From positions 900,001-964,000 of the forward strand of contig NZ_CP158190.1 in the NCBI RefSeq assembly GCF_040250305.1: DNA of 64,000 nt, in the 5' to 3' direction. The notes under the pieces were generated by a model, which worked only from the letters and a program-made list of their open reading frames with translations, ran no database searches and was not told where the DNA came from. Each line of letters begins with the position of its first letter. Position 1 is the stretch's first letter. A program made the translations under genes and the position numbers. This stretch comes from Peribacillus frigoritolerans. GTDB taxonomy: Bacteria; Bacillota; Bacilli; Bacillales; DSM-1321. This document shows, one piece after another, positions 4,680-40,000 of this stretch.

Positions 4680-4740
4680 AAAAGGGGTTGCTGCGGCAAG
4701 CCTTTTTCTTATGGTCCTATAGGAACAGGTTAGTTCAACG
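4680..4740 (+). repeat. Array repeat, type B, left box lost
   Basis: GGTTGCTGCGGCAAGCCTTTTTC hairpin-terminator, TTATGG, then a right box whose left arm is worn but whose right arm GGTTAGTTC is intact. Confidence 0.7.
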
Positions 4741-4803
4741 AAGATAAGATATAATTTGGATTAATATACAAAATTTTAATGAAAATAGAAGGGAAGCGTG
4801 AAT

Positions 4804-5247
4804 ATGACAGAAATGGTACCACTGACATCGGAGAATTTGGAGCTATGTATCGAACTCTACATGAATGTTTTTAATCGTGAACCATGGAATGAAAGATGGA
4901 CATATGAAACGGCTAAAGAGAGACTTTCCGACTTATTGAATACGCCTAAATTTCTTGGCTTTTTATTTCATGTAGATCACAATCCAGTTGGTTTTGTTGC
5001 TGGAAATAGTAAGGTGTCTTATCAAGGTTTAACTTATTATTTGGCAGAGCTTTGTGTGAATAATGAAATGCAAGGCAAAGGGCATGGCTCAAAAATGCTT
5101 CGATCTTTAGAAGCTGAACTGCAGAAGAGAGAGATTAAAAGTCTATATTTATTAACGGCTAATGACGGTCATGCAGAAGCATTTTATCTGAAAAATGATT
5201 ATGTTGTAAATGAAGATAGGGTGGTTATGAAGAAAAATTTATTTTGA
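4804..5247 (+). CDS. GNAT family N-acetyltransferase
   Basis: Acetyl-CoA-dependent acetyltransferase of about 147 residues, the common single-domain GNAT length. Motif A, with the pyrophosphate-binding loop MQGKGHGSKML, lies near residue 90-100 after the beta strand YLAELCVNNE. A C-terminal FYLKNDY helix-strand matches motif B. The substrate is unknown. ATG at 4804 has AAGGGA ten bases upstream; a GTG six bases earlier is the alternative. Its last codons overlap the region before the PepSY gene, so the two form a small operon inside the array. Confidence 0.85.
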   Translation: MTEMVPLTSENLELCIELYMNVFNREPWNERWTYETAKERLSDLLNTPKFLGFLFHVDHNPVGFVAGNSKVSYQGLTYYLAELCVNNEMQGKGHGSKMLRSLEAELQKREIKSLYLLTANDGHAEAFYLKNDYVVNEDRVVMKKNLF

Positions 5248-5270
5248 AAAGTAGTCAAGGGGGGATGGAA

Positions 5271-5801
5271 TTGTCGAAATCTGTAAAGTTGTATCAATTA
5301 AGCCGAAAAATACATAAATGGACTGGATTGGTTTTATCCGTTTTTTTTATGTTCATTGCAGTCACAGGCCTCGTACTTGTTTATATGATGCCACTCGGAG
5401 TGGCTGATGAGTTAAGGACGGGGAAAGAAGCGAGTCCAGATCAAGCGATACCTATGGAGAAGGTCGTGTCCATTGCTACGTCTCAGGATCTTCCAGGTGC
5501 GGATTCGGTTGAAGATATATTTAGAATTGAATATAGACCAAGTGCAAATGTGTACCAGGTTCGCTTTCATAACGGTCAAGGTGTTCAAATAGATGTAAGT
5601 ACGGGAAAAGTGTTATCCACAAATCCAGATTACTCGACTTTCCTGATTACTTTGCATGATGGATCCTTCTTTGGCGATTGGTATAGATACAGTATCCTCA
5701 CAATGACCGGTTTATCCTTAATACTGCTGTCATTTTCCGGGTATTACATGTTCGGGTATCCTCTCTATAAGCGTCTAATGGCGAATAAAAGGCAATCTTA
5801 A
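5271..5801 (+). CDS. PepSY-domain membrane protein
   Basis: A 176-residue protein with RKIHKWTGL, typical of PepSY-associated membrane proteins, leading into TM1 (about 18-40). An extracytoplasmic PepSY-like segment (about 60-118, with VYQVRFHNGQGVQIDVSTGKVL) and TM2 near residue 140-162 follow. Relatives act with iron uptake or peptidase regulation; the role here is not known. TTG at 5271 is chosen because AAGGGGGG lies six bases before it. It follows the acetyltransferase closely and precedes fosB. Confidence 0.75.
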   Translation: MSKSVKLYQLSRKIHKWTGLVLSVFFMFIAVTGLVLVYMMPLGVADELRTGKEASPDQAIPMEKVVSIATSQDLPGADSVEDIFRIEYRPSANVYQVRFHNGQGVQIDVSTGKVLSTNPDYSTFLITLHDGSFFGDWYRYSILTMTGLSLILLSFSGYYMFGYPLYKRLMANKRQS

Positions 5802-5815
5802 TCTGAGGTGGTAAT

Positions 5816-6238
5816 GTGTCTATAAAAGGTTTGAATCACTTTTTATTTTCAGTTTCCGATTTAGAGAGTTCCATAGAATTTTATCAAAAGGTTTTTGATG
5901 CAAAATTATTAGTTAAGGGCAGAACTACAGCCTATTTTGATTTGAATGGAATGTGGATTGCCCTGAATGTTGAAAAAGATATTCCCCGTAATGAAATAAG
6001 CCATTCATACACACATATAGCATTTTCCATAGAAGAAGCTGACTTTATTAACATGTACGAGAAACTAATCGGATTGAATGTAAACATCCTGTCAGGACGT
6101 CCAAGAGATGAAAAAGATAAGAAGTCTATTTATTTCACTGATCCAGATGGTCATAAGTTTGAGTTTCATACAGGTACTTTACAAAATAGAATAGATTACT
6201 ACAAACAAGAAAAAGCACATATGGAGTTTTTCGACTGA
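5816..6238 (+). CDS. fosB: Metallothiol transferase FosB (fosfomycin resistance)
   Basis: Close match to Bacillus FosB, a VOC-fold Mn/Mg enzyme that adds bacillithiol (or cysteine) to the epoxide of fosfomycin in the cytosol. The 140-residue length is normal. Metal ligands are visible: His8 (GLNH), His67 (SYTHIAF) and Glu116 (GHKFEF). The family blocks GRTTAYFDLNG, KDIPRNE and SIYFTDPDG are intact. The start is GTG with GAGGTGG upstream. It lies in a multi-gene cassette after the PepSY gene. Presence suggests fosfomycin tolerance but does not prove it. Confidence 0.93.
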   Translation: MSIKGLNHFLFSVSDLESSIEFYQKVFDAKLLVKGRTTAYFDLNGMWIALNVEKDIPRNEISHSYTHIAFSIEEADFINMYEKLIGLNVNILSGRPRDEKDKKSIYFTDPDGHKFEFHTGTLQNRIDYYKQEKAHMEFFD

Positions 6239-6274
6239 TAAGTAAGCTATTTTCAAATGAAAAGGGGAACGTTC

Positions 6275-6967
6275 ATGAAAACTATTGGCCTTATTGGCGG
6301 CATGAGCTGGGAGTCATCTTTAGAATATTATCGAATCATTAACGAAGAAGTAAAAGCCAAATTGGGAGGATTGCATTCAGCCAAGTGCATTTTATATAGC
6401 GTGGATTTTGAAGAAATCGAACGCTACCAAGCTGAAGGGGATTGGGAAAGCTCAGGCAAATTATTAGGCGATGCAGCTTTGTCTTTGGAAAAGGCAGGTG
6501 CCGAAATGATTCTTATTTGTACAAATACGATGCATAAAGTGGTCGGATATATTGAAGAAAAAGTCAATTTACCGATTTTACACATTGCTGATTCAACGGC
6601 AAAACAAATTCAAAAGTCCAAAATCAGTACGATTGGTTTACTGGGCACTAAATATACGATGGAGCAAGACTTTTATAAAACACGAATAGAGTCTAATGGT
6701 ATCAAGGTTTTGATACCAAATGATGAGGATAGAAAAGTCATCAATAAAGTAATTTATGAAGAATTATGTTTAGGGGAAATTCAACAATCATCAAGGGAAT
6801 ATTACAAAAACGTAATCAAGGGGTTAGTTGATGATGGAGCGGAAGGAATAATACTAGGCTGCACAGAAATTGGATTACTAGTAAAACCCGAGGATTCCGA
6901 AGTGCCATTATTCGATACAGCTGTAATACATGCCATTGAAGCCGTAAATATGGCATTGGAAAAATGA
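6275..6967 (+). CDS. Aspartate/glutamate racemase family protein
   Basis: PLP-independent amino-acid racemase of about 230 residues (RacX/YgeA type). It starts MKTIGLIGGMSWESS. Two catalytic cysteines are visible: Cys82 in ICTNTMH and Cys196 in GCTEIGLL. Family members interconvert L- and D-amino acids by two-base proton transfer. ATG at 6275 follows AAAAGGGG with good spacing. It is the last gene of the multi-gene cassette that contains fosB. Confidence 0.9.
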   Translation: MKTIGLIGGMSWESSLEYYRIINEEVKAKLGGLHSAKCILYSVDFEEIERYQAEGDWESSGKLLGDAALSLEKAGAEMILICTNTMHKVVGYIEEKVNLPILHIADSTAKQIQKSKISTIGLLGTKYTMEQDFYKTRIESNGIKVLIPNDEDRKVINKVIYEELCLGEIQQSSREYYKNVIKGLVDDGAEGIILGCTEIGLLVKPEDSEVPLFDTAVIHAIEAVNMALEK

Positions 6968-6977
6968 TTTGATGACA

Positions 6978-7049
6978 TTGTGCTTTAAAAAGGAAGGTTG
7001 CTGTGGCGGCCTTTTTTTGTGGAGTAAAAGGGGCAGGATAATTCAGGGA
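6978..7049 (+). repeat. Array repeat, type B, worn
   Basis: TGTGCTTTA remnant of the left box, GGTTGCTGTGGCGGCCTTTTTTT hairpin, then AGTAAAAGGGGCAGGATAATTC as a worn right box. Confidence 0.65.
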
Positions 7050-7130
7050 ATTTTCAATCAAATAAATGGAATTATGTGTTAAAGTTTTACTATAAGAATT
7101 GGGACTCATCAAATTTAAAGGGAGAAAAAG

Positions 7131-7332
7131 ATGAGAAATGTAATATATATATATTTATTACTATTTTAATTTGGATCTTATCAGGAACTTTTTTGTTCAT
7201 CCATAGTAAGGGTCTGATGAATGTTAATCCTTGGGGGATGCACAATTTTGATACAAATAGCAGTTATTCTATTACCGGTTATTGGACTATTTTTGTCAAT
7301 TCTTATTAAGAAAGCTTTTCTTCATGCTTAAG
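7131..7332 (+). pseudogene. Small two-TM membrane protein, frameshifted twice
   Basis: A start MRNVIYIY with GGGAG upstream is in frame 0. The hydrophobic middle (FITILIWILSGTFLFIHS) is in another frame, and a second hydrophobic segment (ILIQIAVILLPVIGLFLSIL) ending at 7332 is back in frame 0. The frame changes fall in an alternating AT tract and at a run of five G, both slippage-prone. Read across both, it would be a protein of about 66 residues. It is either a decayed gene or a slippage-switched one. Confidence 0.4.
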
Positions 7333-7390
7333 CTGTGCTTATGCAGCTAATTGATTAGAAATAAAATTTATATTGCAGTAAAGGAGAAGG

Positions 7391-7594
7391 TTGGACTTGA
7401 TAAAGATAGATACAGTTTTTTCATATATTCTTCTAGGAGTGATCGTATTTTACGCCTTGGAGTGGTTAGCTGTTGGTTCAGGTTTCGGGGTACTTGTTGG
7501 CGGGAGTTTTGGTTTACTTTTATTTATAGCCAATCATATTAGTAAAAATCAAAAAAACATGGGTAATACGGAAGAACCTGATGACAAGCAATAA
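7391..7594 (+). CDS. Small membrane protein, hypothetical
   Basis: A 67-residue protein with one long hydrophobic stretch (about 9-48, probably two helices split by GSGFG) and a polar tail NQKNMGNTEEPDDKQ. TTG start with AAGGAGAAGG just upstream; a second in-frame TTG lies two codons on. No family recognised. It is followed directly by an array repeat. Confidence 0.6.
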   Translation: MDLIKIDTVFSYILLGVIVFYALEWLAVGSGFGVLVGGSFGLLLFIANHISKNQKNMGNTEEPDDKQ

Positions 7595-7608
7595 ATATTA
7601 ATATACTA

Positions 7609-7689
7609 GTCTAACGGGTGCTTTACATTAATAACAGGGTTGCTGTGGCAGCTCTATTCTTATGAAAAGGGGCAGGTTAGTTGAATAAG
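7609..7689 (+). repeat. Array repeat, type B
   Basis: Left box CTAACGGGTGCTTTAC, hairpin GGTTGCTGTGGCAGCTC with a short T run, TTATG, then GGGGCAGGTTAGTTGAATAAG. The left arm of the right box is eroded. Confidence 0.85.
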
Positions 7690-7739
7690 ATATTTTGGAT
7701 AAATGTATGTAAGAATTAGTAATATAAGGGGGGATTCTT

Positions 7740-8291
7740 ATGATATATGATAATCTAAATAAAACAATTACCACTAAAAGGCTAGTACTAAGACTTTTTC
7801 AAATATCTGATGCAGTAGCTGTTACTAAACTTTGTAATAATTATAATATTTATAAAAATACATTGTACCTACCTTATCCATATACTATAGATGATGCTTT
7901 ATCATGGATTGAGCATCATCTTAATAATTTTAATGCTAATAAATCATATGAATTTGCTATAACAGATAAGGAAAGTGGAGAATTATATGGAGCTATAGCG
8001 CTATCTAACAACCACAAGTTTAATCATGGTGAAATAGCCTATTGGATTGGTGAAAAATTTTGGGGAAATGGATATGCTACAGAGGCAGCGCAAGCTATAT
8101 TACATTTTGCATTTGAAGAAAAGCAATACCATAAAGTATTTGCTCGTTACTTTAATTCAAATCCAGCTTCAGGAAGAGTAATGCAAAAATTAGGCATGAA
8201 AAAAGAAGGGGTATTAATTGACCATGTGAGGAAAGAAGACCGATTTGAAGATCTAGTATGTTATGGGATTATAAACTCAGTAGGATTATAG
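7740..8291 (+). CDS. GNAT acetyltransferase, RimJ/RimL type
   Basis: A 183-residue acetyltransferase of the group that modifies protein or small-molecule amines. It opens with TTKRLVLRLFQISDA, the standard RimJ/RimL start, and has YWIGEKFWGNGYATEAAQA (acetyl-CoA loop, about 100-118) and ARYFNSNPASGRVMQKLGM near the C terminus. The ATG has GGGGGATTCTT upstream. Sole gene of its cassette. Target unknown. Confidence 0.88.
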   Translation: MIYDNLNKTITTKRLVLRLFQISDAVAVTKLCNNYNIYKNTLYLPYPYTIDDALSWIEHHLNNFNANKSYEFAITDKESGELYGAIALSNNHKFNHGEIAYWIGEKFWGNGYATEAAQAILHFAFEEKQYHKVFARYFNSNPASGRVMQKLGMKKEGVLIDHVRKEDRFEDLVCYGIINSVGL

Positions 8292-8348
8292 ATTATACTG
8301 AGGGAGATATGCTAAATTATTAGCCAAATGGTGGACCGATGGTTTAAT

Positions 8349-8411
8349 GGGTTCAACCAGATATATTTGGCTGAACTTCTTTTAGTAAAGGGTTCTTTAC
8401 TTCAACTTATT
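8349..8411 (+). terminator. Terminator hairpin followed by a left-box remnant
   Basis: GTTCAaCCA pairs with TTGGcTGAAC and is followed by TTCTTTT. Directly after comes TAAAGGGTTCTTTACTTCAAC, which resembles a worn type B left box. From 8430 to 8535 a stop-bounded frame codes a short acidic peptide without a start, perhaps a gene remnant. Confidence 0.5.
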
Positions 8412-8559
8412 GCTATTGTCATAAAAACATCCTGAAAACAAGAAATATAAAGATTATGATTATGAGCGTGAGGATGATTTTATAAATATAGATATGGAAT
8501 ATTTAATAAGTAGGATCACTATCTCGTTAATGTAGTACTAACGGAGGAGAAACAGACAT

Positions 8560-9009
8560 ATGCCAGAAAATAAAAATGATTCATTTCGTGATATGAATAT
8601 AAAAGAAAAGATGGCAACAGTTGCCGGATTAGCATTTCTCATTATTCTGGTAGTGGGCTTTGTTATGGGGCTTTATTTCTTTGGACTGGCAGGGATTTTT
8701 GAACTGCTCGGCGTTCGGTATGAATCTATCTGGTCATTGGTTATTTTTGTTGTCAGTTTCTTTATTCTAGGCATCATTGTCGAATTGTTTTCCAAAGCAA
8801 TTTTCAAGCTGTCTGTCCGAAATATAACAGGAAAAATAAAGGTGTTTTTTATCCGAATCGGTTTTGAAGGCACATCGAACTGGCTAGTACTGTTCGCAGT
8901 GGATGAGTTTATGAAAAGTATTACACTTTCCTTGAAAACCGAGATTATTATTGCATTGCTACTTGCCATAATAGAAATTGTTTTCGACGATGATAAGGAA
9001 ATCCCCTAA
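8560..9009 (+). CDS. YrvL-like membrane protein
   Basis: A 149-residue protein with a polar 18-residue N terminus and four hydrophobic segments (about 22-48, 55-82, 103-118, 125-143). The layout and the GIIVELFSKAIFKLSVRN block resemble the Bacillus YrvL family of small membrane regulatory proteins. That assignment rests on recollection of the family and is moderate. ATG at 8560 follows GGAGGAG. No clear repeat lies on its 5' side apart from the remnant near 8390. Confidence 0.55.
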   Translation: MPENKNDSFRDMNIKEKMATVAGLAFLIILVVGFVMGLYFFGLAGIFELLGVRYESIWSLVIFVVSFFILGIIVELFSKAIFKLSVRNITGKIKVFFIRIGFEGTSNWLVLFAVDEFMKSITLSLKTEIIIALLLAIIEIVFDDDKEIP

Positions 9010-9136
9010 TAAAACAATTTACTTAAGTATAATTAGGGATTTCCTGTACCTCAGGTGTAGAATAATGGAGTTGGAAGTGAACTTAGCTCGTGATTTATAT
9101 TATTTAAGGCAAAGACAGACTCAAAGGTAAGACAAA

Positions 9137-9412
9137 TTAGCCCATGCTGAGATTTTTCCATATTCACCGTGCATTTTTGGTCCACCATTTATAAAAATCT
9201 TCTTTGAAAATTTGAATCAAGATATCCTAATAATGGGCTTCTGTATATCCGGTCACGTACGGACCTTATATGTTTAGAGGCCATCCTGGAATCTTAGGTA
9301 AAGGCGTATCAACAGGTAATGAACCAATTTTCGCTGCTTCTTTTAATAAAAGTTCTTTATTTTAAATCCCCATTCATTCCACGATTCTTCTAAACTCGGC
9401 TAATTCTTTCAT
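9137..9412 (-). pseudogene. Nonsense-riddled gene remnant
   Basis: Starting at an ATG with GGAAGGAG upstream, one continuous frame of about 91 codons reads like protein (MKELAEFRRIVE, then KEAAKIGSLPVDTPLPKIPG, then ILIQIFKEDFYKWWTKN). It is broken by five in-frame stops and no frameshift. This is the pattern of point-mutation decay. Family not recognised. It occupies most of the gap between 9010 and 9512 and is antisense to the array. Confidence 0.5.
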
Positions 9413-9512
9413 GTGAATGACTCCTTCCTTGTTTATTCGAACTGTGCAACATTAAAACTCATATAATTTTCCACTATTTGGTTTATAATGATAGTAAGGA
9501 GTTGTTGTTTAA

Positions 9513-9887
9513 TTGAATGTTACTAATATAAGTACATCCATTTGTGAAGATATTATAATTACTAATTTGACAGGTTTCATAACCCTTGCTGATGTAAACA
9601 CCTGGTTTAATTCATTTGAGAAAACGTGCTATTCATTTATTAGACAAGGAAAAAAGTATAAGTTGTTAGTTAATCGTAAAGGTTATACTCCAGAACATTT
9701 TTCTGTACAAAAATTGTGGAAAGACAAATTTTTCTCTAATAATATATTAGAGAACACCATTGCAGTCGCTTTTTTATTAGAAGAAGGTGATATTCTAATT
9801 CACCTTGAACAGTCTAATACCAAAGACAATGCAATGTTCTCAAGTAATTATGACCAATTAATTGACTGGCTTACTAAATATAAATAA
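9513..9887 (+). CDS. Hypothetical cytosolic protein
   Basis: A 124-residue soluble protein. The order of strands and helices (IIITNLTGFITLADVNTWF, KKYKLLVNRKGYTP, TIAVAFLLEEGD) looks like an STAS/SpoIIAA-type fold, but no signature is decisive and no function is assigned. TTG start. It is followed by a small hairpin and the repeat copy at 9.9 kb. Confidence 0.6.
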   Translation: MNVTNISTSICEDIIITNLTGFITLADVNTWFNSFEKTCYSFIRQGKKYKLLVNRKGYTPEHFSVQKLWKDKFFSNNILENTIAVAFLLEEGDILIHLEQSNTKDNAMFSSNYDQLIDWLTKYK

Positions 9888-9901
9888 CGGATTATTACTC
9901 C

Positions 9902-10047
9902 TAAGTTGCTGAAAGGTAACTTTTTTTAATGCACAGTTTGTGTCAACTCTGCAATAAGCTATAGAACTAACGGGTGCGTTAGCTGAAGATCGTAGCTGTC
10001 TTTAAGGCAGCTTTTTTCTTATGGAACTAACGGGGCAGGATAGTTGA
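9902..10047 (+). repeat. Array repeat, type A, with accessory GCACAG box
   Basis: Three parts lie in a row: a small AAGTTGCT/AGGTAACTT terminator hairpin (9902-9928), the accessory box GCACAGTTTGTGTCAACTC (9931-9957), and a full type A copy (9964-10047) with left box GAACTAACGGGTGCGTTAG, hairpin AGCTGTC-TTTA-AGGCAGCT and right box AACTAACGGGGCAGGATAG. Confidence 0.92.
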
Positions 10048-10193
10048 AGAGTGCTGTTTGATCTTTATTCAACAATTGGGCCATTTAATGGAATAAGGCT
10101 TAATGAACGGTCAGTTGAAGAAAAAAGGTTATTTCGTTCTATTGTCGAATTTAGTCTATTTAAGAAGATTAGGATTTTCAAAGGAGAAAGAGT

Positions 10194-10544
10194 ATGCAAA
10201 AAAAGGGACAATTAGAAGTTTTTAACCTACACGAATTAATAAAAGACCAAAAGGACTACACAAATTTTATCGTAAGTGAAGTAAATGACCACGCTCTTAG
10301 AATAGCTGTGATAAATGGAGAATTTCACTGGCATAAACACGACGATTGCGATGAATTATTTTATGTATTAGAAGGTGAACTTTTCATAGACCTAGAAAAC
10401 AATGAAACAGTTTCTTTGAAACCAGGTGAAATATTTACTGTTCCTGCTAATACAATGCATCGTACTCGTTCAAACGAACGGACAGTTAATATATGTTTTG
10501 AAAAGGCGAGTATTGACGTAAAAGGAAGTAACAGTGAGTTGTAA
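10194..10544 (+). CDS. Cupin-domain protein
   Basis: A single-cupin protein of 116 residues. Motif 1 is HWHKHDDCDELFYVLEGE (about 42-59), giving two histidines and a glutamate as metal ligands. Motif 2 is PGEIFTVPANTMH. Such small cupins are sugar-modifying enzymes, dioxygenases or metal-binding proteins; the reaction is not predictable. ATG with AAAGGAGAAAG upstream. Sole gene of its cassette. Confidence 0.85.
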   Translation: MQKKGQLEVFNLHELIKDQKDYTNFIVSEVNDHALRIAVINGEFHWHKHDDCDELFYVLEGELFIDLENNETVSLKPGEIFTVPANTMHRTRSNERTVNICFEKASIDVKGSNSEL

Positions 10545-10572
10545 TTATCTATGGGGTTATTTCACTAAAGGG

Positions 10573-10605
10573 CGCATTTCATTAATATGAAATGCGTTAT
10601 TTTTG
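10573..10605 (+). terminator. Terminator after the cupin gene
   Basis: CGCATTTCAT-taat-ATGAAATGCG followed by TTATTTTTG. It is preceded by CACTAAAGG, possibly a left-box remnant, so this may be a cassette boundary with a different hairpin. Confidence 0.75.
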
Positions 10606-10630
10606 TTTAACAATCATTTACAAAAAATTA

Positions 10631-10662
10631 TTAATCAGTTAAACTGATAATATGATTAACTG
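10631..10662 (+). promoter_or_regulatory. Inverted repeats, likely MarR operator
   Basis: ATCAGTTAAACTGAT is a near-perfect palindrome, followed by a second related half (ATTAACTGAT), immediately upstream of the ribosome binding site of the MarR-type gene. MarR proteins commonly repress their own operon from such sites; binding here is inferred. Confidence 0.55.
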
Positions 10663-10681
10663 ATAATTGGAGGTGATTAAT

Positions 10682-11125
10682 CTGTATTTAAATAATTCTT
10701 ATGGTTTTTTGCTAGCAAAAATTGAGGAAGAGATGGAAGAACGCTTAATAAATAATCTTTCGCCACTAAAAATCAACGCAAGACAATTTGGAATCTTACA
10801 ATTTATTGAAGATAATCCAGATTCCTCACAAATCACAGTTTCCAATGCACTATTTATTGACCGTACAACAATGGTGGCACATGCTGATCATTTAGAGGAT
10901 TTAGGTTATATCAAAAGGATTAAAAACCCAAATGACAGAAGGTCATTTGTTCTAACCATAACGGATCAAGGTGAAGAAAAATTAAGGTTAGGAAGAAATT
11001 ATCTTGAGGATACTGAATTAAGCGTTTTATCATCTCTAACTAAGGAAGAAAAAGAAAAATTAAAATCACTTTTGTTAAAAGTTTGGAGATCAATTCAAAA
11101 GGAGGAAAAGGATGAATCGTATTGA
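10682..11125 (+). CDS. MarR family transcriptional regulator
   Basis: A winged-helix dimeric regulator of about 147 residues. The helix-turn-helix region contains QFGILQFIEDNP and DRTTMVAHADHLEDLGYIKR, and the wing reads NPNDRRSFVLTIT, the MarR signature. GGAGGTGA at 10669-10676 cannot precede the upstream TTG. It points to a CTG start at 10682, an unusual start codon. The next gene (rhodanese) overlaps its end by 14 bases, so both are one operon, probably autorepressed through the palindromes just upstream. Confidence 0.85.
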   Translation: MYLNNSYGFLLAKIEEEMEERLINNLSPLKINARQFGILQFIEDNPDSSQITVSNALFIDRTTMVAHADHLEDLGYIKRIKNPNDRRSFVLTITDQGEEKLRLGRNYLEDTELSVLSSLTKEEKEKLKSLLLKVWRSIQKEEKDESY

Positions 11126-11513: not shown

Positions 11514-11538
11514 ATGAATTTAATATTAAAAGTAGGCT

Positions 11539-11614: not shown

Positions 11615-11677
11615 GATCACAAAAATAATCAATCTTTTTATAAAGTAAACAAGAAGATTAAAAATATATGTTGTTCG

Positions 11678-31048: not shown

Positions 31049-31059
31049 CATTTTTTATA

Positions 31060-33445: not shown

Positions 33446-33459
33446 AATAAATATTGTTT

Positions 33460-33494
33460 GCCATACAATAATTATATTGTATGGCTTTTTTTTT
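33460..33494 (+). terminator. Terminator after mocR, doubling as a palindromic site
   Basis: GCCATACAAT-aattat-ATTGTATGGC followed by nine T. The arms are identical to the operator-like palindrome upstream of mocR, so the site may also bind the regulator ahead of the aminotransferase gene. Confidence 0.8.
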
Positions 33495-33649
33495 ACGTGT
33501 TATGATAATTCAAACTTAGTTGGGGGATGAAAGGAAATATTAATTTTGGTGTCATAGGCTTATCCCTTTATATAAAAATCTGAATATTCCAATAAAATAA
33601 GAAGTGGTAGGTAAAAAAATTGAAATGTTAAAGGAAGGAATGTTTACAA

Positions 33650-34852
33650 TTGGAAAATAAATTTGCTGAGAGGGCCCGTCTAGTTAATTCTTCTGAGACC
33701 CGTGAAATATTAAAAGTAACAGAAAGGCCAGAAATCATTTCTTTTGCGGGAGGACTTCCAGCTCCGGAGCTGTTTCCTGTTGAAGCCCTTAAAGTTGCTT
33801 GCAATGTTGTATTGAATGAAGAGGGCGCGGCTTCTCTTCAATATAGTACTACTGAAGGCTATGGTCCGTTGAGAGAAGCTATATGTCAAAGGATGAAAGC
33901 CATTGGGATTAACTCTGCTATTAACAATGTTCTTATCACTTCAGGGTCCCAGCAAGCAATAGATCTTACTGGAAGATTATTTATCAACGAAGGAGATACC
34001 ATTATTTGTGAAAGCCCAACCTATCTTGCAGCAATTAATGCATTTAAATCATACAATGCAAACTTTGTGGAGGTAGCTATGGACAATGATGGGATGATAA
34101 TGGAAGAGCTAGAGAGGAAACTGCAAGAGCATCCTGGCGCAAAATTCATTTATACTATTCCCGATTTCCAGAACCCTACAGGTCGTACATTAAAACTTCA
34201 AAGACGTAAAAGAATGATCGAACTTGCTAATCAATACGATGTACTGATTGTAGAAGATAATCCTTATGGAGCTATTAGGTTTGCTGGAGAGGGAATCCCT
34301 CCAGTGAAACATTTTGACACAGAGAACAGAGTAATTTATATGAGCACGTTCTCTAAAATTTTCACTCCAGGCATGCGAATTGGATGGATTTGTGCAGATC
34401 AATCGTTTATTGATAAGTACGTGGCTTTCAAGCAAACAGCTGATTTACATACCGACAGCTTTGCTCAAAGGATAACAGCTAAGTATATGGAACTTTACGA
34501 TATGGAAGAGCATATTAAAGAAATCAAAGCAGTATATAAAGCAAGATGTACAAAAATGTTAAAATGCATAAAAGAATTCTTTCCGGAAAATTTGTCTTAC
34601 AGTAAGCCAGAAGGTGGGTTGTTTATTTGGATCGAGCTCCCAGAGGGGGTTGATTCCAGACATATATTTACAGAGTGCTTGAAAAATAATGTTGCTTGTG
34701 TTCCTGGTGTTCCATTCTTTCCAAATGGCACACAGAAGAACACTTTACGTTTAAATTACTCGAATATGCCTGAAGACCAAATCATTGAAGGCATGAAGCG
34801 TATGGGGGATGTATTACATCGTGAATTAAATAAAGAGACAATATGTTTGTAA
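33650..34852 (+). CDS. PLP-dependent aminotransferase (2-aminoadipate/LysN-like)
   Basis: A fold-type I class I/II aminotransferase of 400 residues. It has ISFAGGLPAPELFP, LQYSTTEGYGPLREAI, ITSGSQQAID, YTIPDFQNPTGRT, VEDNPYGAIRF and the PLP lysine Lys236 in FSKIFTPGMRIGW. The layout matches the 2-aminoadipate/valine-pyruvate group; the substrate is not certain. TTG start, AAGGAATG upstream. It follows mocR by about 200 bases in the same direction and is its likely regulated target. Confidence 0.9.
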   Translation: MENKFAERARLVNSSETREILKVTERPEIISFAGGLPAPELFPVEALKVACNVVLNEEGAASLQYSTTEGYGPLREAICQRMKAIGINSAINNVLITSGSQQAIDLTGRLFINEGDTIICESPTYLAAINAFKSYNANFVEVAMDNDGMIMEELERKLQEHPGAKFIYTIPDFQNPTGRTLKLQRRKRMIELANQYDVLIVEDNPYGAIRFAGEGIPPVKHFDTENRVIYMSTFSKIFTPGMRIGWICADQSFIDKYVAFKQTADLHTDSFAQRITAKYMELYDMEEHIKEIKAVYKARCTKMLKCIKEFFPENLSYSKPEGGLFIWIELPEGVDSRHIFTECLKNNVACVPGVPFFPNGTQKNTLRLNYSNMPEDQIIEGMKRMGDVLHRELNKETICL

Positions 34853-35019
34853 CTAAAGGAAACAAAAAATAATTAAATCAAACACCAAAACCATTTATAA
34901 ATATATTTACCGTCTAAATGTTTAATGAAAGCACTATTCTTAAAAATATCCAATTTAAAAAATAAGATTTTAATTGTATTATTAATAAATCTTATATTTG
35001 AATAATCAGGAGGCTTATT
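34853..35019. other. AT-rich leader region
   Basis: Carries a loose inverted repeat (AAATAAGATTTTAATTG...AATAAATCTTATATTTG near 34957-35000) just upstream of the leader peptide; a promoter is expected here. Confidence 0.35.
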
Positions 35020-35121
35020 ATGCCAATATCATTTATAAATCCATATATTACAAAGCCCGTTTCGACATCACCACCACCACCGTTTACTCCTGTATATACG
35101 CTTATATATAAAACAGATTAA
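35020..35121 (+). CDS. Proline-rich leader peptide (33 aa)
   Basis: A short ORF with a strong ribosome site (CAGGAGG, seven bases before ATG) encodes MPISFINPYITKPVSTSPPPP then FTPVYTLIYKTD. Four consecutive prolines, a sequence known to stall ribosomes unless EF-P helps, lie mid-peptide. It stops one base before a perfect 12-base-pair hairpin that ends at the ribosome site of the EamA gene. The arrangement suggests a regulatory leader, though a small secreted or structural peptide is possible. Confidence 0.6.
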   Translation: MPISFINPYITKPVSTSPPPPFTPVYTLIYKTD

Positions 35122-35156
35122 GAATCTGCGAAATATATAAGCTGTTTCGCAGATTC
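35122..35156 (+). promoter_or_regulatory. Strong hairpin between leader peptide and EamA gene
   Basis: GAATCTGCGAAA pairs perfectly with TTTCGCAGATTC across 11 bases. There is no T run, so it is not a simple terminator. The 3' arm ends at the GAAGGAG ribosome site of the next gene. It could control initiation or act as a pause element. Confidence 0.65.
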
Positions 35157-35169
35157 GAAGGAGTAGGCG

Positions 35170-36063
35170 ATGAAATCTAAAATTCAGTTTATATTATCAA
35201 TGATTATTTTCGGTACAATGGGTTTAGTTGTGAAAAACATTGATTTATCTTCGAGTGAAACAGCTTTTCTAAGCAGTTCAATTGGGTGTCTCTTTTTAGT
35301 GTTTGTATTTTTCATTATGAAGAAATCCATTCCATGGAAATTAGTGAAAGTTAATGCTTCTACCCTTTTTCTTTCTGCGATTGCATTGGGAGGGAATTGG
35401 ATTTTTCTTTATCAATCCTACGATCATACAACACTTGCCAATGCAACACTTGGGTATTATTTTGCGCCAGTGTTTGTCATGGTTCTCTCGCCATTTGTAC
35501 TTAAGGAGCTTTTACCAATTAAAAAAATTGTTTGTATTGGTGTAGCGATATTAGGTATGTTATTGATTATTGGAAACGGCATTAGCGCCTCTGGTAAAGA
35601 TGATCTACTTGGAATCCTTTTCGGGTTAGTTGCGGCTGCATTTTATTCAGCTTTAATGTTATTAAACAAATTCATTCAAAACATGGGCATGTTAGAGATT
35701 ACAATCATTCAACTTGGAACAACTGCTTTACTTCTCTTTCCCTATGTATTATTCACTGAGGGATTCGGTATCTTGGAAGTCTCAAGATCTTCCGTTCCTT
35801 TTATAATACTCTTAGGCGTTGTTAACACTGGTATTGGCTTTTGGTTATTTTTTTCCGGTATGCTAAAGTTAAAGGGACAAAGCATCGCTATGCTAAGCTA
35901 TGTAGATCCTTTTGTAGCTATACTGATTTCTGCTGTAATCTTACAGGAAAAAATGACAATTGTTCAAATCATAGGTGGCACACTCCTTTTAGGTTCAACT
36001 TTTATTAGTGAAAATAATACAATTAATTTTCGAAAACGACACACGAAGATTTTAACAAAATAA
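35170..36063 (+). CDS. EamA/DMT family transporter
   Basis: A 297-residue exporter-type membrane protein with ten predicted helices in two EamA repeats (about 5-135 and 150-285). The second repeat ends with the usual YVDPFVAILISAVILQEKMT. Family members export amino acids, nucleobases or drugs; the substrate is unknown. ATG with GAAGGAGTAGGCG upstream. It is preceded by a proline-rich leader ORF and hairpin and followed by a strong terminator, so it is its own operon. Confidence 0.9.
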   Translation: MKSKIQFILSMIIFGTMGLVVKNIDLSSSETAFLSSSIGCLFLVFVFFIMKKSIPWKLVKVNASTLFLSAIALGGNWIFLYQSYDHTTLANATLGYYFAPVFVMVLSPFVLKELLPIKKIVCIGVAILGMLLIIGNGISASGKDDLLGILFGLVAAAFYSALMLLNKFIQNMGMLEITIIQLGTTALLLFPYVLFTEGFGILEVSRSSVPFIILLGVVNTGIGFWLFFSGMLKLKGQSIAMLSYVDPFVAILISAVILQEKMTIVQIIGGTLLLGSTFISENNTINFRKRHTKILTK

Positions 36064-36072
36064 AGAAACGGG

Positions 36073-36103
36073 GCAGTGAGGGGAAATCCCTCACTGCTTT
36101 TTA
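36073..36103 (+). terminator. Terminator after the EamA gene
   Basis: GCAGTGAGGG/CCCTCACTGC with TTTTT. The preceding AAACGGGGCAG resembles the spacer of the array right box, possibly a remnant copy. Confidence 0.88.
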
Positions 36104-36175
36104 CTATATTCCAAGTGAAAAGTCTAAGTTTTGTTACACTCTACTGCCACTAAATTACTTCTTTATTTAACTGAC

Positions 36176-36297
36176 GCAGAGTTTGTGTCACTCTACAATA
36201 AGTCTTAATGAACTAACGGGTGAGTTGGCTGAAGATCGGAGCTGTCTTTAAGGCAGCTTTTTCTTATGGAACTAAAGGGGCAGGTTTGTTCAAGAAG
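36176..36297 (+). repeat. Array repeat, type A, with accessory GCAGAG box
   Basis: GCAGAGTTTGTGTCACTC (36176-36200), GAACTAACGGGTGAGTTGG, type A hairpin, GGAACTAAAGGGGCAGGTTTG. Confidence 0.93.
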
Positions 36298-36420
36298 GTA
36301 TTAGGAAATCTTTTGACGAAAATATAAAGAGCTTAGTAAGAAGCGCTTAAAATACCATATAGAAAAACAGGAAAAAACTAACTGCTAAAAAATTCAGGGG
36401 GGAAAATATAGAAACAAACA

Positions 36421-36966
36421 TTACTGATAATCGATGCTCAACAGGAATTAATAGAAGGTAATAAAGAAAAACAAGGAGTCTTTGAGAAAGAAAAAATCAT
36501 TAACAACATTAATACTGTAATTGAAAAAGCGATAAATGAAAGTATCCCCGTTGTTTTTATAAGAGATTTAGATGTTTCAAATGGAGAAGGACCTGGATTC
36601 CAGATACACAGGGATATTAAAATACCATCAACTGCTATCATATTTGATAAAGCTGCCACAAATTCATTTTATGGAACCCCATTACATGAACATTTAAGTG
36701 AAAACAATGTAGATCATATTGTAATAATGGGATGTAAGACGGAACATTGTATTGATTCAGCTGTTAGAACAGCAACAATCAATCATTTTGATGTAACATT
36801 AGTTGGTGATGGACATTCTACTTCTGACTCAAAAAACTTATCTGCAAAACAAATAATCCTTCATCACAATGACACCCTTCACGGTCACTATAATGTAGAC
36901 AATTTTTCACTTGTTAGAAATTCTAATGAAGAATTGTTTAAACCTATTCACAATAATTATCGATAA
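36421..36966 (+). CDS. Isochorismatase-family cysteine hydrolase, start codon damaged
   Basis: The frame from about 36421 reads LLIIDAQQELIEGN, VVFIRDLDVSNGEGPGFQ, FDKAATNSFYGTPL and IVIMGCKTEHCIDSAVRTAT. It holds the catalytic Asp (LLIID), Lys (FDK) and Cys (TEHC) of isochorismatase-like hydrolases at normal spacing, to about 181 residues. The expected start (ATG AAA CAA ACA) appears as ATAG AAA CAA ACA after GGGGGGAAA, with one extra base and no ATG. Only a CTG at 36424 or an internal ATG at 36727 remains. It may be poorly translated or silent. Confidence 0.7.
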   Translation, partial: LLIIDAQQELIEGNKEKQGVFEKEKIINNINTVIEKAINESIPVVFIRDLDVSNGEGPGFQIHRDIKIPSTAIIFDKAATNSFYGTPLHEHLSENNVDHIVIMGCKTEHCIDSAVRTATINHFDVTLVGDGHSTSDSKNLSAKQIILHHNDTLHGHYNVDNFSLVRNSNEELFKPIHNNYR

Positions 36967-36977
36967 TAATCATCTTC

Positions 36978-37066
36978 AATTAACGAGTGCGTTAGCTGAA
37001 GATCAGAGCTGTCTTTAAGGCAGCTTTTTTCTTATGGAACTATCGGGGCAGGTTTGTTGAAGAAGG
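36978..37066 (+). repeat. Array repeat, type A
   Basis: CAATTAACGAGTGCGTTAG, type A hairpin with a long T run, GGAACTATCGGGGCAGGTTTG. Confidence 0.95.
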
Positions 37067-37146
37067 ATTGAAACTTTATTAATTTAGGAATCGTATAACT
37101 GAGAGTAATACGGGTAGGAAACGATAACGATAAGGGATGATAAATA

Positions 37147-37341
37147 ATGGAGACTTGTAGCAAATGCGGCAACGAACTTACTAGAGCCTATATTTCTGGA
37201 ATTCAAGGAGAATTTCAGATAAACAAAGAAGCAAGAGGTTTTTTCACGGATAGTCCGATTTACAGCAAAGTATCTCCTTATGTTTGTTCTAAATGTGGGT
37301 ATTTAGAGTTCTATGTAGAACAACCTGACAAATTCAAATAA
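37147..37341 (+). CDS. Small zinc-ribbon protein
   Basis: A 64-residue protein with two CxxC knuckles (CSKCGNELTRAY near the start and VCSKCGYLEFYVE near the end), enough to bind one zinc. The middle segment is EFQINKEARGFF. It resembles small nucleic-acid-binding zinc ribbons; partner unknown. ATG with AAGGGATGATAA upstream. Single-gene cassette. Confidence 0.8.
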   Translation: METCSKCGNELTRAYISGIQGEFQINKEARGFFTDSPIYSKVSPYVCSKCGYLEFYVEQPDKFK

Positions 37342-37367
37342 TGAAAGGGATTTCTACTTATTGTAAA

Positions 37368-37429
37368 AGACTCAAGGTTGCTGATGCAGCCTTTTTCTTA
37401 TGGCCCTAACGGGGCAGGTTAGTTTAATT
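37368..37429 (+). repeat. Array repeat, type B, left box lost
   Basis: AAGGTTGCTGATGCAGCCTTTTTC hairpin, GGCCCTAACGGGGCAGGTTAG. Confidence 0.9.
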
Positions 37430-37518
37430 AACTGACATTATAATAGGGATGAAATAGAATATAAAACGAAACTTTCTTTATGTATATTCCGTAAGTATTG
37501 TAAAAAGGAGGAAGAAAG

Positions 37519-37752
37519 ATGAAAAGAAATGTTGGGATTTTTATCGTTGTACTCATTTCAATAGGAATGGCTGATTTAATACAGGGAATTATTTTAACAT
37601 CAATATATACACCAGATTCTTACTCAACGAATGGTCAAGAAATGGAACCCTTCCTACAATACATTATCTCAGCTATAACCGTAACCTTAGCTCTTTGGAG
37701 TGTTCACAAGGTAAAGCTTTTATTAAAAGGCTCTAAATCACCAAGGTTTTAA
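37519..37752 (+). CDS. Small two-TM membrane protein, hypothetical
   Basis: A 77-residue protein: helix 1 (about 5-27), a polar extracellular loop (YTPDSYSTNGQEMEP), helix 2 (about 46-66), basic C terminus. No family recognised. ATG with AAAGGAGGAAG upstream. Confidence 0.7.
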   Translation: MKRNVGIFIVVLISIGMADLIQGIILTSIYTPDSYSTNGQEMEPFLQYIISAITVTLALWSVHKVKLLLKGSKSPRF

Positions 37753-37786
37753 TAATAGAGAACATATTGAAAAGACAGGACTTAAT

Positions 37787-37874
37787 GAACTAAAGGGTGC
37801 GTTAGCTGAAGATCGGCGCTGTCTTTAAGGTAGCTTTTTCTTATGGCCCTCTCGGGGCAGGTTAGTTCCATAAG
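37787..37874 (+). repeat. Array repeat, type A
   Basis: GAACTAAAGGGTGCGTTAG, hairpin GCTGTCTTTAAGGTAGC, CCCTCTCGGGGCAGGTTAG, TTCCATAAG. Confidence 0.94.
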
Positions 37875-37989
37875 GAAATGGATTATTTTACACTAATGAA
37901 TAATTACTCTTTATTGTTATTATTTTCTTAAAGGTTCAAATTATTTTAATTTGATATCGTTAATTCACCATTAAGGAATGTGATTTACT

Positions 37990-38199
37990 GTGAGAGCAAT
38001 AAATAAAATTAACTTAGTTACAAAGTTATTAATTTTTTTAATTTTTGTCTCTTTTAATACATATATTTGTTTTTATGCAAAAGACAAAACAGAAGGTATA
38101 GTTACTGCGTGTATAGGTATCTTTCTAGTGATATTGGTTGCAACTATGGGATTTCTTCTAGATAGAAGCAACCATATGTATGTAAGACAAAGAGGATGA
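37990..38199 (+). CDS. Small two-TM membrane protein, hypothetical
   Basis: A 69-residue protein with helices at about 8-27 and 34-54 and a short basic end (DRSNHMYVRQRG). GTG start with AAGGAATG upstream. No family recognised. It shares its cassette with a second tiny ORF just downstream. Confidence 0.65.
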   Translation: MRAINKINLVTKLLIFLIFVSFNTYICFYAKDKTEGIVTACIGIFLVILVATMGFLLDRSNHMYVRQRG

Positions 38200-38237
38200 A
38201 AAAGGAAAGGCAAAAAAGAGGGTTTTTCAAAGGGATA

Positions 38238-38336
38238 ATGATTGAAATTCGTGATTCAATCTTATATGAATTCGTTTTTAACCTCTTTACTCTTATTCCA
38301 AGAATGATAGTTCGTTTAGTAAAAAGTTTATTTTAA
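38238..38336 (+). CDS. Small hydrophobic peptide (32 aa)
   Basis: ATG eight bases after AAAGGG encodes MIEIRDSILYEFVFNLFTLI then PRMIVRLVKSLF: an amphipathic or membrane-bound helix with a basic end. It is too short for family assignment. Such peptides can be toxin-like or regulatory, but nothing here shows that. Confidence 0.45.
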   Translation: MIEIRDSILYEFVFNLFTLIPRMIVRLVKSLF

Positions 38337-38363
38337 CTAATTGTGTCGGAAGTAATTCTTAAT

Positions 38364-38452
38364 GAACTAACGGGTACGTTAGCTGAAGATCAGAGCTGTC
38401 TTAAAGGCAGCTCTTTTCTTTTGGAACTAAAGGGGCAGGTCAGTTCTATAAG
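38364..38452 (+). repeat. Array repeat, type A
   Basis: GAACTAACGGGTACGTTAG, hairpin GAGCTGTCTTAAAGGCAGCTC, GGAACTAAAGGGGCAGGTCAG, TTCTATAAG. Confidence 0.95.
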
Positions 38453-38530
38453 AAATATTTAAAAAGGAAGGGATTTCCTTTTTTTGCTGGAACATATAAA
38501 AGTATATATAAATAAAAGAGGTTGATTTTA

Positions 38531-39145
38531 ATGACAAAGATTTTATTAACTTCTAATGGATTTTTTACAGATTTAATTAAACAACAATTTTTGCAACTAA
38601 TTGATGGAGATTTGAGTAATCTAAAAGCAACAATAATTACTACTGCTTCTCATAAAAAACAAAATAATAGATTCGCAATGAAAGCAAGAGAAGACCTCTT
38701 AGGATTTGGATTTAAGAAGGTTGATTTTATTGATATAGAATTTGATAAACCTGAACTACTTGAGAAATATAATGTAATCTATATCAACGGAGGAAATCCA
38801 TTTTATTTGTTATACCATTTGAAAAAGAGTGGGGCTGACTTAAAATTAAAGGAAATAGCAAAACAAAACACCATATTAGTTGGGGTAAGTGCCGGAGCAA
38901 TTATTCTTGGACCAAACATTAATGTTATAGATTATTTTACTCCTCAAATGAATACCGTGAATATTAAAGATTTAACTGCATTAAGAATAACCGACGAAGC
39001 TATAATTCCTCATTATGATAGGGAGGATTTATTTCCGGACTCTTCTAGCAAGACAATTGAAGATAGGTTGAAAGTCTTCGAAAAGCTAAATAATTGTTCT
39101 GTTGTCAGATTGAGGGATGACCAATTTTTACTTATAAATAATTAA
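38531..39145 (+). CDS. Peptidase S51-family (dipeptidase E-like) protein
   Basis: A 204-residue member of the S51 family, which cleaves Asp-X dipeptides or processes cyanophycin-like substrates. The nucleophile elbow is GVSAGAIILG (Ser near residue 124), with YINGGNPFYLLYHL before it and IPHYDRED after it, the usual order. ATG at 38531 follows AGAGGTTGA. Single-gene cassette. A second S51-type gene lies at 51.6 kb. Confidence 0.85.
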   Translation: MTKILLTSNGFFTDLIKQQFLQLIDGDLSNLKATIITTASHKKQNNRFAMKAREDLLGFGFKKVDFIDIEFDKPELLEKYNVIYINGGNPFYLLYHLKKSGADLKLKEIAKQNTILVGVSAGAIILGPNINVIDYFTPQMNTVNIKDLTALRITDEAIIPHYDREDLFPDSSSKTIEDRLKVFEKLNNCSVVRLRDDQFLLINN

Positions 39146-39153
39146 TTTGTTTT

Positions 39154-39240
39154 TGAACTAACAGTGCGGTAGCTGAAGATCAGAGCTGTCTTAAGGCAAC
39201 TTTTTCTTATGGAACTAAGGGACAGTTTAGTTGAACAAGG
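39154..39240 (+). repeat. Array repeat, type A, worn
   Basis: GAACTAACAGTGCGGTAG, hairpin AGCTGTCTTAAGGCAACT, GGAACTAAGGGACAGTTTAG. Confidence 0.92.
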
Positions 39241-39360
39241 TTCTTAAAAAACCTTAATAGGAGTTATATCAAATACCTCAGTTTATATTCTTTTAAAGGT
39301 TTTATTAAAGTTAAATTGAATTATTAATATGGATAAATAAAACAAAGTTGAGGTGTTATC

Positions 39361-39879
39361 TTGCAGATACTTTTAATTCGACATGGTGAGTCAGAAGACG
39401 ATTTTCTAGAAGAAAATTACGAAGGAACTACAGATTTACCACTAACTATTAAGGGAGTTGAACAAGTAGAAAAAATGTGCCGGCGTGTATCAGAAGAGTT
39501 TCCACCAGAATTCATATGGTCAAGTACCTTGCTTCGTGCTAGTAAAACTGCTGAAACTTTATCAAATACTATCCAATGCCCAGTAACATTCTTAGATGAT
39601 TTACGAGAGATGCAAGATATGGAGAGTAAATTTGATTTTAGATTACGAGCACAAAATGTTCTTTCCTATATTAGAGAGAACAGTGCAAATTATAAACGAA
39701 TTGCTATAATATCCCATGGGGGGATGATTACTAAAATGATTGAAAGCTTTCTTCAATTACCACCCGAAATTAATGATGTGTGGTTCAATTCTAATAATAC
39801 AGGTATACATCTTCTTGAGTATACCGATCATCCATACAAACTTATAAGATTTTTAAATAGTACTACGCATTTGAATTAA
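39361..39879 (+). CDS. Histidine phosphatase family protein
   Basis: A 172-residue phosphoglycerate-mutase-like phosphatase. The catalytic motif is LLIRHGES (Arg7, His8, Gly9), then SSTLLRASKTAETL and ISHGGMITKM, carrying the second histidine near residue 118. All four core residues appear present. Substrate unknown; the family includes phosphatases for sugars and nucleotides. TTG start with GAGGTGTTATC upstream. Last gene of the continuous array. Confidence 0.88.
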   Translation: MQILLIRHGESEDDFLEENYEGTTDLPLTIKGVEQVEKMCRRVSEEFPPEFIWSSTLLRASKTAETLSNTIQCPVTFLDDLREMQDMESKFDFRLRAQNVLSYIRENSANYKRIAIISHGGMITKMIESFLQLPPEINDVWFNSNNTGIHLLEYTDHPYKLIRFLNSTTHLN

Positions 39880-39920
39880 CTTATGTTCATGATAAAAAAT
39901 TTTAACTCCTTTAAAATCAG

Positions 39921-40000
39921 AAGCTGAGCGTTAGCTAATCGGAGCTGTCTTTAAGGCAGCTTTTTCTTATGGCACTAACGGGGCAGGATAGTTCCATAAG
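39921..40000 (+). repeat. Array repeat, type A, last copy of the continuous array
   Basis: Eroded left box GCTGAGCGTTAGC, type A hairpin, CACTAACGGGGCAGGATAG, TTCCATAAG. The next genes are on the minus strand and not in cassettes. Confidence 0.92.

Follow-up and report, generated by a model that had tools for sequence, protein, structure and literature searches.

The stretch under study comprises positions 900,001-964,000 of the single 5.6-Mb contig of Peribacillus frigoritolerans (NZ_CP158190.1) and is referred to below as the window (64,000 nucleotides in full). It carries the 3' part of a long array in which genes alternate with copies of a palindromic repeat. Using an nhmmer profile built from 22 full copies of the repeat, 47 plus-strand matches and 1 minus-strand match were found in the window (E≤0.05), of which 43 plus-strand copies, whole or partial, lie at 4172..43010, while the reversed window gave 0 matches with the same profile. 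These figures are in agreement with the initial annotation of the sequence, which had reported about 45 copies in one orientation and had correctly placed them in a Bacillaceae genome. The range originally given (4680..40000) proved too narrow: the array continues upstream to ~793 kb and spans ~793-943 kb of the contig, roughly 150 kb, with 114 plus-strand matches and 1 minus-strand match to the repeat profile between 780 and 964 kb, and further repeat clusters are located at 1.43, 1.89, 2.71, 3.13-3.17, 3.28-3.32, 4.43, 4.59 and 5.26 Mb. The last array site (42960..42977, plus strand) is followed by chromosomal sequence conserved both in the genome studied here (G000) and in G101, a genome of the same species.

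The covariance-model search proposed at the outset recovered at least 145 copies in the same genome (E≤0.1; 150 of 3,088 candidates scored) and 176 matches (E≤0.05) in 393 kb of stretches from it, a few of these matches being one copy read on both strands. Among 41 genomes, repeat matches at 1e-4 were obtained in 24 of 25 within the genus and in 5 of 16 outside it. A scan of viral contigs (74 loci) and an annotated plasmid region served for distribution only. The open reading frames fit the earlier description of a mostly single, short, plus-strand gene before each repeat, with exceptions on the minus strand that include a Spo0M-like gene (Pfam PF07070; 15233..16009) and a transposase gene of the IS110 family (23341..24612).

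Copies of the repeat are ~80% alike and follow the order R''-6 nt-L''-hairpin-L'-7 nt-R', exactly the geometry that had been read from the sequence at first. In the model copy (14512..14606, plus strand) the left core site consists of an arm (14512-14525), a 6-bp spacer (14526-14531) and a second arm (14532-14545), after which a terminator hairpin leads to the right core site, made up of an arm (14572-14585), a 7-bp spacer (14586-14592) and an arm (14593-14606). Over 378 well-placed sites from ten genomes, R' has a consensus of ~14 bp in common with the reversed R'' and L', GTTAGTT(c/g)(a/c)ATAAG (reverse of R'', GTTAGTTcAAtAAg; reverse of L', GTTAGTTCCATAAG; R', GTTAGTTgAAtAAG), and L'' is mostly GTTAGCTGAAGATC, or TTTACTTCAATAAG where the hairpin is of a second type. 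The left spacer reads GGGTGC in 220 and the right spacer GGGGCAG in 293 of the 378 sites. Since the four arms are of one consensus, each repeat reads as two complete Xer-type core sites, 14-6-14 on the left and 14-7-14 on the right, flanking a short hairpin that is followed by T's. The likeness to an integron attC site results from the same layout, in which four copies of one arm form two palindromic core sites around a terminator hairpin.

In searches with the separate motifs, too, the repeat greatly exceeds chance. Allowing up to 2 mismatches, the left motif gave 57 matches on both strands of the window (6.1 expected; 0 of 100 shuffles reached 57), many copies counting twice because the motif is nearly palindromic, and the right motif gave 24 matches versus 0.33 expected. 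Terminator-like sites on both strands numbered 26 and 25 in the two halves of the array (9.5 and 8.8 expected), many of those on the plus strand being the repeat hairpins themselves. No match was found in Rfam at the gathering score, nor did a tRNA scan detect any. Sites with no hairpin also occur: at 11588..11607 (plus strand, left-motif search) two arms are joined directly as R''-GGGTGC-R', and at 13937..13957 (plus strand, right-motif search) as R''-GGGGCAG-R'.

Exchange of genes and hairpins between genomes

Comparison of relatives, the check proposed in the initial annotation, revealed that single genes have changed neighbours between genomes, with the boundaries inside the repeat; the mobile cassette system postulated in the initial annotation was thus borne out as an exchange of single-gene units. 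Array stretches of five genomes were divided into 285 units (median length 761 bp), yielding 29 homologous unit pairs, 6 of them with no testable side, and homologous neighbours were found on none of the 28 testable sides. A set of ten genomes (G000, G001, G004, G006, G007, G013, G023, G043, G047, G050) provided 831 profile matches and 479 full sites with flanks, among which 68 site pairs share the downstream gene and 112 the upstream gene, both flanks being kept in 3 of 177. After ten sites with pairs caused by the IS110 element had been dropped, at a cost of 9 of the 107 right pairs and 0 of the 65 left ones, the junction comparison retained all 65 pairs on the left and 98 on the right, in 52 families on each side.

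Rearrangement is also seen within the species. Contig C4 of G101 matches the window over 31,060-36,220, continues with ~9.2 kb of other modules and resumes at window position 36,257; both borders of the difference fall at the sites of a single repeat (36211..36290, plus strand), and at the left one the hairpin is gone and the spacer reads GGGGCAG. Between G101 and G000, 42 of 129 units have a homologue at ≥90%, and adjacency is kept in 6 and lost in 10 of the 16 testable pairs. The dense arrays, the rarely kept neighbours and this within-species rearrangement do not fit an immobile repeat of the REP or bcr type, judged by distribution and not by comparison with the bcr family itself; repeats fixed beside conserved genes or scattered singly, the case that had been named against the cassette model, are not what was encountered.

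Individual modules illustrate the pattern. The glyoxalase-like gene module at 13951..14525 (plus strand) has homologues in G001, 97% identical over the unit and with a different upstream arm, and in G043, where the copy is 98.7% identical over the first 150 bases, stands behind a hairpin absent here and begins its likeness at ATTAGTT. Similarly, the module at 37861..38371 (plus strand) is shared with G023 and G001 with three different upstream arms, and in G023 it is followed by a hairpin of the other type.

The boundaries were located with a positional profile of one pair per family (45 of the 52 families scored on each side, IS110 pairs removed). At the left junction, identity is close to background in L' (0.60 against 0.56 at position -9 and 0.44 against 0.48 at -8) and rises from R' onward (0.82/0.61, 0.76/0.48 and 0.87/0.33 at positions 0, 1 and 7), hence R' belongs to the gene. 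At the right junction it amounts to 0.89 (background 0.74) at the last base of R'' and 0.78 (0.56) at the first base of the spacer, which is partly shared, followed by 0.64/0.48, 0.56/0.54 and 0.42/0.42 at positions 13, 17 and 20, in L'' and beyond. Walking along the right pairs, the first divergence most often falls on the base that follows the 6-bp spacer (25 of 77). Exchange points are therefore likely to lie in both spacers, with the gene probably travelling as R'-gene-R''; the single junction at the right box that had been assumed initially gives way to two apparent exchange points, one per spacer. Given two points of exchange in place of one, the attC-like body would mostly stay behind when the upstream gene moves.

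The L''-L' hairpin shows hardly any linkage to the gene on either side. Its likeness beside shared genes was 0.77 on the left (p=0.20) and 0.81 on the right (p=0.041), compared with 0.75 for random pairs. Among pairs free of insertion sequences, a switch between two unrelated hairpin types was recorded in 20 of 65 on the right and in 14 of 46 on the left, close to the random fraction of 0.33; it was likewise seen in 24 of 71 right pairs with the IS110 pairs still in, in 14 of 41 right and 12 of 38 left cases when scored by family, and in 9 of 31 and 8 of 22, respectively, where the gene flank is ≥95% identical. In addition, the same gene end was found with and with no hairpin in 9 pairs from 6 loci; the gene end AAGTAACGGGTGC, for example, continues with TTTACTTCAATAAGGG in G023 and with GTTAGCTGAAGATCGG in G001. 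For this count 6 of 33 hairpinless gene-end loci (right type) were used and 35 hairpinless gene-start loci were left out, because degenerate left sites mimic the latter.

A Xer-like recombinase in the hairpin slot

A candidate enzyme was traced from a remnant of 38 codons. The first 17 codons of a Xer-like recombinase gene are present at 15181..15231 (plus strand; compare L073:769-1608), where the likeness ends at the Spo0M-like gene lying inside the broken frame, and its last 38 codons and stop are at 16058..16174 (plus strand), with full-length homologues of 279 aa in relatives. A left-type site 5' of the broken gene (15018..15035, plus strand) and a right-type site directly after the remnant and a terminator (16209..16229, plus strand) form the 5' and 3' borders of what corresponds to a hairpin-slot module. 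No second match to the C terminus of the recombinase was detected in this genome, and a PF00589 scan of it returned 14 matches, none in the window. Candidates near other repeat clusters were dropped as array recombinases: L010/L012 look like a phage-type integrase in two frames, L013 like a short remnant, and L014 (3,168,042-3,171,530, by the cluster at 3.13-3.17 Mb) like a set of three recombinase-like genes in a row, similar to sets of the Tn554 type.

Among named genomes, 187 stretches encode a relative of the recombinase, and 78 loci were kept, from many genera of Bacillaceae and near kin. At 29 of the 78 loci the gene lies between a left-type and a right-type site, mostly at similar distances, so the recombinase occupies the hairpin slot; the chance background per slot site is 0.034 and 0.035, i.e. 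~0.1% per orientation for both sides. In these slot loci the gene is transcribed against the array direction in 22 cases and with it in 7. Within the examined stretch (E≤0.1) at least 1 repeat accompanies the recombinase at 68 of the 78 loci and at least 3 at 46. Within the genus, 15 of 36 genomes have a recombinase match at 1e-60, some with stops or incomplete.

The residues R-K-H-R-H-Y, which we take to be catalytic, are conserved in 9 aligned recombinases and invariant or ≥90% in 46. For the protein of L073 the NCBIfam scores (cut-offs in brackets) are 205.8 bits for XerD (329.6), 201.5 for XerC (335.15), 201.1 for XerA (220) and 96.6 for the integron integrase (265). Four recombinases scored singly were below the cut-offs of XerC, XerD and XerA; the best of the 46 members reached an E-value of 6.9e-67 with the XerA model, the own title of which is "site-specific tyrosine recombinase/integron integrase", and some may pass its cut-off. 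The predicted fold (mean pLDDT 83.8, pTM 0.61) retrieved XerA first by Foldseek E-value, with the integron integrase 2a3v at rank 14. In these respects, namely a two-domain protein of ~280 aa, best scores for XerD, XerC and XerA and conserved catalytic residues, the array recombinase resembles the simple Xer/XerA tyrosine recombinases (PMC8138268), from which it differs in being linked to arrays of module sites. In the recombinase tree the members labelled as transcribed in the array direction form one clade (100/99); the root of this tree carries no meaning, the outgroup reading frames having been badly extracted.

A plasmid of P. simplex (NZ_CP011009.1 161526-176219, L323; G006:C2) carries repeats, an uninterrupted recombinase gene and a second tyrosine recombinase gene, and may possibly serve as a vehicle for modules.

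Possible mechanism and alternative explanations

Taken together, the data are probably best explained by arrays of paired core sites, likely recognised by a recombinase, in which genes have changed neighbours at boundaries likely placed in the two spacers, likely through the Xer-like recombinase whose gene lies in such arrays in relatives and is disrupted here. Each repeat contains two sites, the left with its arms 6 bp apart and the right with its arms 7 bp apart, on either side of a short terminator hairpin. As there are two sites per repeat, gene modules (R'-gene-R'') alternate with small hairpin modules (L''-hairpin-L'), and at other loci the place of the hairpin is taken by the recombinase gene itself. 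The predicted mode of action is binding of the enzyme to the ~14-bp arms in double-stranded DNA, with strand exchange in the spacer. Left sites would pair mostly with left and right with right, so that a gene would move with the hairpin of one side or the other and genes and hairpins would reassort; an occasional left-right exchange through the shared GGG would delete a hairpin. The sites, their arms, the near loss of gene-hairpin linkage on both sides, the recombinase in the slot and the within-species rearrangement are observed. We infer that the array-borne recombinase drives the exchange, acting on double-stranded DNA by excision and insertion.

Several observations weigh against this explanation, the main weakness being that most of the array-bearing genomes compared now have no intact recombinase gene. 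It is broken in the genome studied here (15181-16174), 21 of the 36 members of the genus lack a match at 1e-60, and of the ten junction genomes only G004, G006 and G023 possess an uninterrupted copy, with a partial one in G007, one with 9 stops in G043 and no match at 1e-60 in G000, G001, G013, G047 and G050. At least one slot site is missing at 49 of the 78 recombinase loci, and at 10 of them no repeat was found with the same profile. It is, moreover, unusual for a single recombinase to be associated with spacers of both 6 and 7 bp. As for the junctions, 15 of the 77 right pairs show no divergence within 55 bases, and along the left pairs (n=54) the first divergence falls mostly between -28 and -13, only 4 lying at -9 to -6. 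Walking does not resolve the left boundary because L' and its flank are conserved; from this spread it follows that the placement in the left spacer rests on the positional profile, while the right boundary is well placed. Downstream hairpins are slightly more alike than random (0.81 versus 0.75, p=0.041), as integrons would give, and are ≥0.9 alike in 12 of 65 right pairs free of insertion sequences. Finally, the control for unmoved repeats is thin: within the species a single repeat has both flanks conserved (n=1, hairpin 0.98 identical), and in the ten-genome set there are two (hairpins 0.95 and 0.67).

The alternative that survives best, although we regard it as improbable, is recombination of a folded single strand, in which R'' would pair with R' and L'' with L' in an attC-like hairpin, both strand exchanges would be completed and the hairpin tips would swap. 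The pairing geometry is present in the sequence, 2 of 7 predicted folds of single-stranded DNA took the long attC-like form, and free reassortment of hairpins is the expected outcome of a complete exchange between two such folded sites. Two local hairpins resulted in 3 of the 7 folds, however, and covariation over the 378 sites lends no support to the folded attC suggested initially (R''/R', z 1.10; L''/L', z -1.38), an absence which does not exclude folding. Of the 11 pairing registers a single one exceeded |z| 1.7, that between flanks belonging to one gene unit (z 2.63), pairing of the flanks of the same copy was negative, and RNAalifold returned no consensus structure for the repeat. A recombinase gene of ~0.84 kb in the same slot would, in addition, be long for a hairpin tip.

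Homologous recombination between similar repeats, which would reshuffle genes with no site-specific enzyme required, seems very unlikely. In its favour, the repeats are alike and very numerous, the left boundary is not fixed by walking, and large arrays exist in genomes lacking an intact recombinase. Against this stand the 25 of 77 right junctions that first diverge at the base after the spacer, the near-background identity of the arm beyond the spacer on both sides, with no gradient across the ~95-bp repeat, and the recombinase gene in the slot.

Similarly low is the probability we give to dif modules run by the host XerC and XerD with the array-borne recombinase as a passenger. The plasmid dif (pdif) modules of Acinetobacter (PMC13141974) are discrete units set apart by short two-arm sites with a ~6-bp spacer; the sites change orientation from one to the next, so that two kinds of module alternate, and the modules carry accessory genes and shuffle; host XerC/XerD are assumed to act there, the sites are dif-like, and the modules are few and confined to plasmids of one genus. 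Inversely oriented two-arm sites and two alternating kinds of module, unlinked at both spacers, are found here as well, as the arm consensus and the spacers indicate, and the large arrays in genomes with no intact recombinase would also suit the host enzymes. In contrast to Acinetobacter, however, relatives carry a dedicated recombinase in a module slot (29 of 78 loci, many genera), the 6- and 7-bp spacers are fixed by orientation, one kind of module is a short terminator, and more than 100 repeats occur in one chromosomal array, with many genera involved. The host has a single dif-like site of its own at 2,708,943 (G000:C1), ACTTCCTATAATATATATTATGTAAACT, with 1 mismatch to a B. subtilis motif, whereas the module arms, GTTAGTTcAATAAG, are unlike it. 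The closest mechanism nevertheless appears to be that of the Acinetobacter modules, here with a dedicated recombinase.

Integrons share with the present system a large array in one orientation, in which a palindromic repeat stands after each of the small, mostly single genes, as well as a tyrosine recombinase and accessory gene content. The recombinases, which match the integron-integrase model TIGR02249 in two pieces, nevertheless score far below it (96.6, 88.1 and 114.2 bits for three proteins, cut-off 265; 95 bits for the first member and a best E-value of 4.3e-31 with 46 aligned recombinases). An IntI-specific insertion in the catalytic domain marks integron integrases (PMC8138268); here, as read from profile alignments only, it is absent, ~40 positions being missing, since residue 185 of L082 corresponds to profile position 179 and residue 201 of L073 to position 235, and both proteins align free of gaps. 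Integrons also have an attI site beside the integrase, whereas here the recombinase sits in a repeat slot, and the right-type site that follows it, to which a left-type site on the other side corresponds at 29 of 78 loci, has the appearance of a slot border rather than of a distinct attI. In an integron the whole attC goes with its gene, so the reassortment of hairpins and genes seen here, near random relative to both neighbours and with R'' separable from L'', is not integron behaviour. A true integron, with an IntI-type integrase and attC sites moving whole with their genes, is thus the least probable reading, for all its single-gene, same-orientation array, attC-shaped repeat and slight downstream hairpin linkage (p=0.041; 12 of 65 pairs), as the integrase model reaches only 88-114 of the 265 bits, the hairpin body is mostly unlinked from the gene and a second exchange point apparently lies in the R''-L'' spacer. 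Integron identity, which the initial annotation had weighed beside convergence, is not supported; the recombinase is Xer-like. Complementarity between the start and the end of a unit, examined as an integron signature, reached no significance in the window (z 1.20) or for 7-mers over 287 units (z 0.16); the value of 2.63 for flanks beyond the 7-mer, obtained in one of 11 registers, was not taken as support.

The system of core sites and Xer-like recombinase is therefore best read as working like an integron and like dif modules while falling under neither definition. A more tentative proposition, to which we give slightly less than even chances, is that this gene-capture platform represents a class of its own, the third beside integrons and the dif modules of Acinetobacter and independent of both. 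Its chromosomal arrays would consist of genes and transcription terminators that are mobile as modules separately from each other and are linked alternately by core sites of two kinds; a dedicated recombinase derived from Xer, and a module in its own right, would run the arrays and would occur across many genera of Bacillaceae. As the initial annotation had anticipated, no earlier description was found among titles and abstract openings of the open-access literature, preprints and most subscription papers being outside that scope. Firmicutes are regarded as almost devoid of large gene-cassette platforms; the IntegronFinder 2.0 survey lists for them one complete integron and a few integrase-less attC clusters (PMC9024848). 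If the proposition is true, Bacillaceae own an integron equivalent which standard integron models would not be built to find and which would account for a large and rapidly changing share of their accessory genome. The arrays also offer a natural system for testing module excision, the matching recombinase adjoining its sites. In Acinetobacter, two studies differ on this point, one finding no excision of site pairs (PMC11705084) and another detecting deletions and inversions (PMC13141974).

Gene content and other features of the arrays

Pfam matches of the array genes include GNAT acetyltransferases, glyoxalase-fold proteins, a racemase, cupins, MarR, DinB, APH (PF01636), short-chain dehydrogenase, peptidase S51, histidine phosphatase, NIPSNAP, LURP-one-related and DUF4306 families; 6 of 30 scanned reading frames had no Pfam match at 1e-3. 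The PF01636 phosphotransferase-family gene is located at 12097-13005.

The IS110-family transposase gene, identified by Pfam and sequence, belongs to an element (window 23154-24848) that appears to interrupt the L' arm of the right site in the repeat beginning at 23154. The same element lies in the upstream flank of 10 of 479 sites across genomes, and it seems to target module sites, resembling in this respect the IS1111-family elements, some of which target integron attC (PMC11187229).

In L053 (6943-8018), the dif-like site of the host lies ~1 kb from a repeat cluster, and between the two stands a left-type site with no hairpin. Provided that the contig begins at the origin and replication ends near this dif-like site, 186 of the 199 profile matches in the clusters examined in this genome point with replication. 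A second short motif, CACAGTTTGTGTCAACTCTGCATAAG, was noticed by eye with its variants at about 9935, 20705, 21765, 31663, 36178 and 42925; at the 3' ends of a number of gene modules, it directly precedes either R'' or a right-type site.

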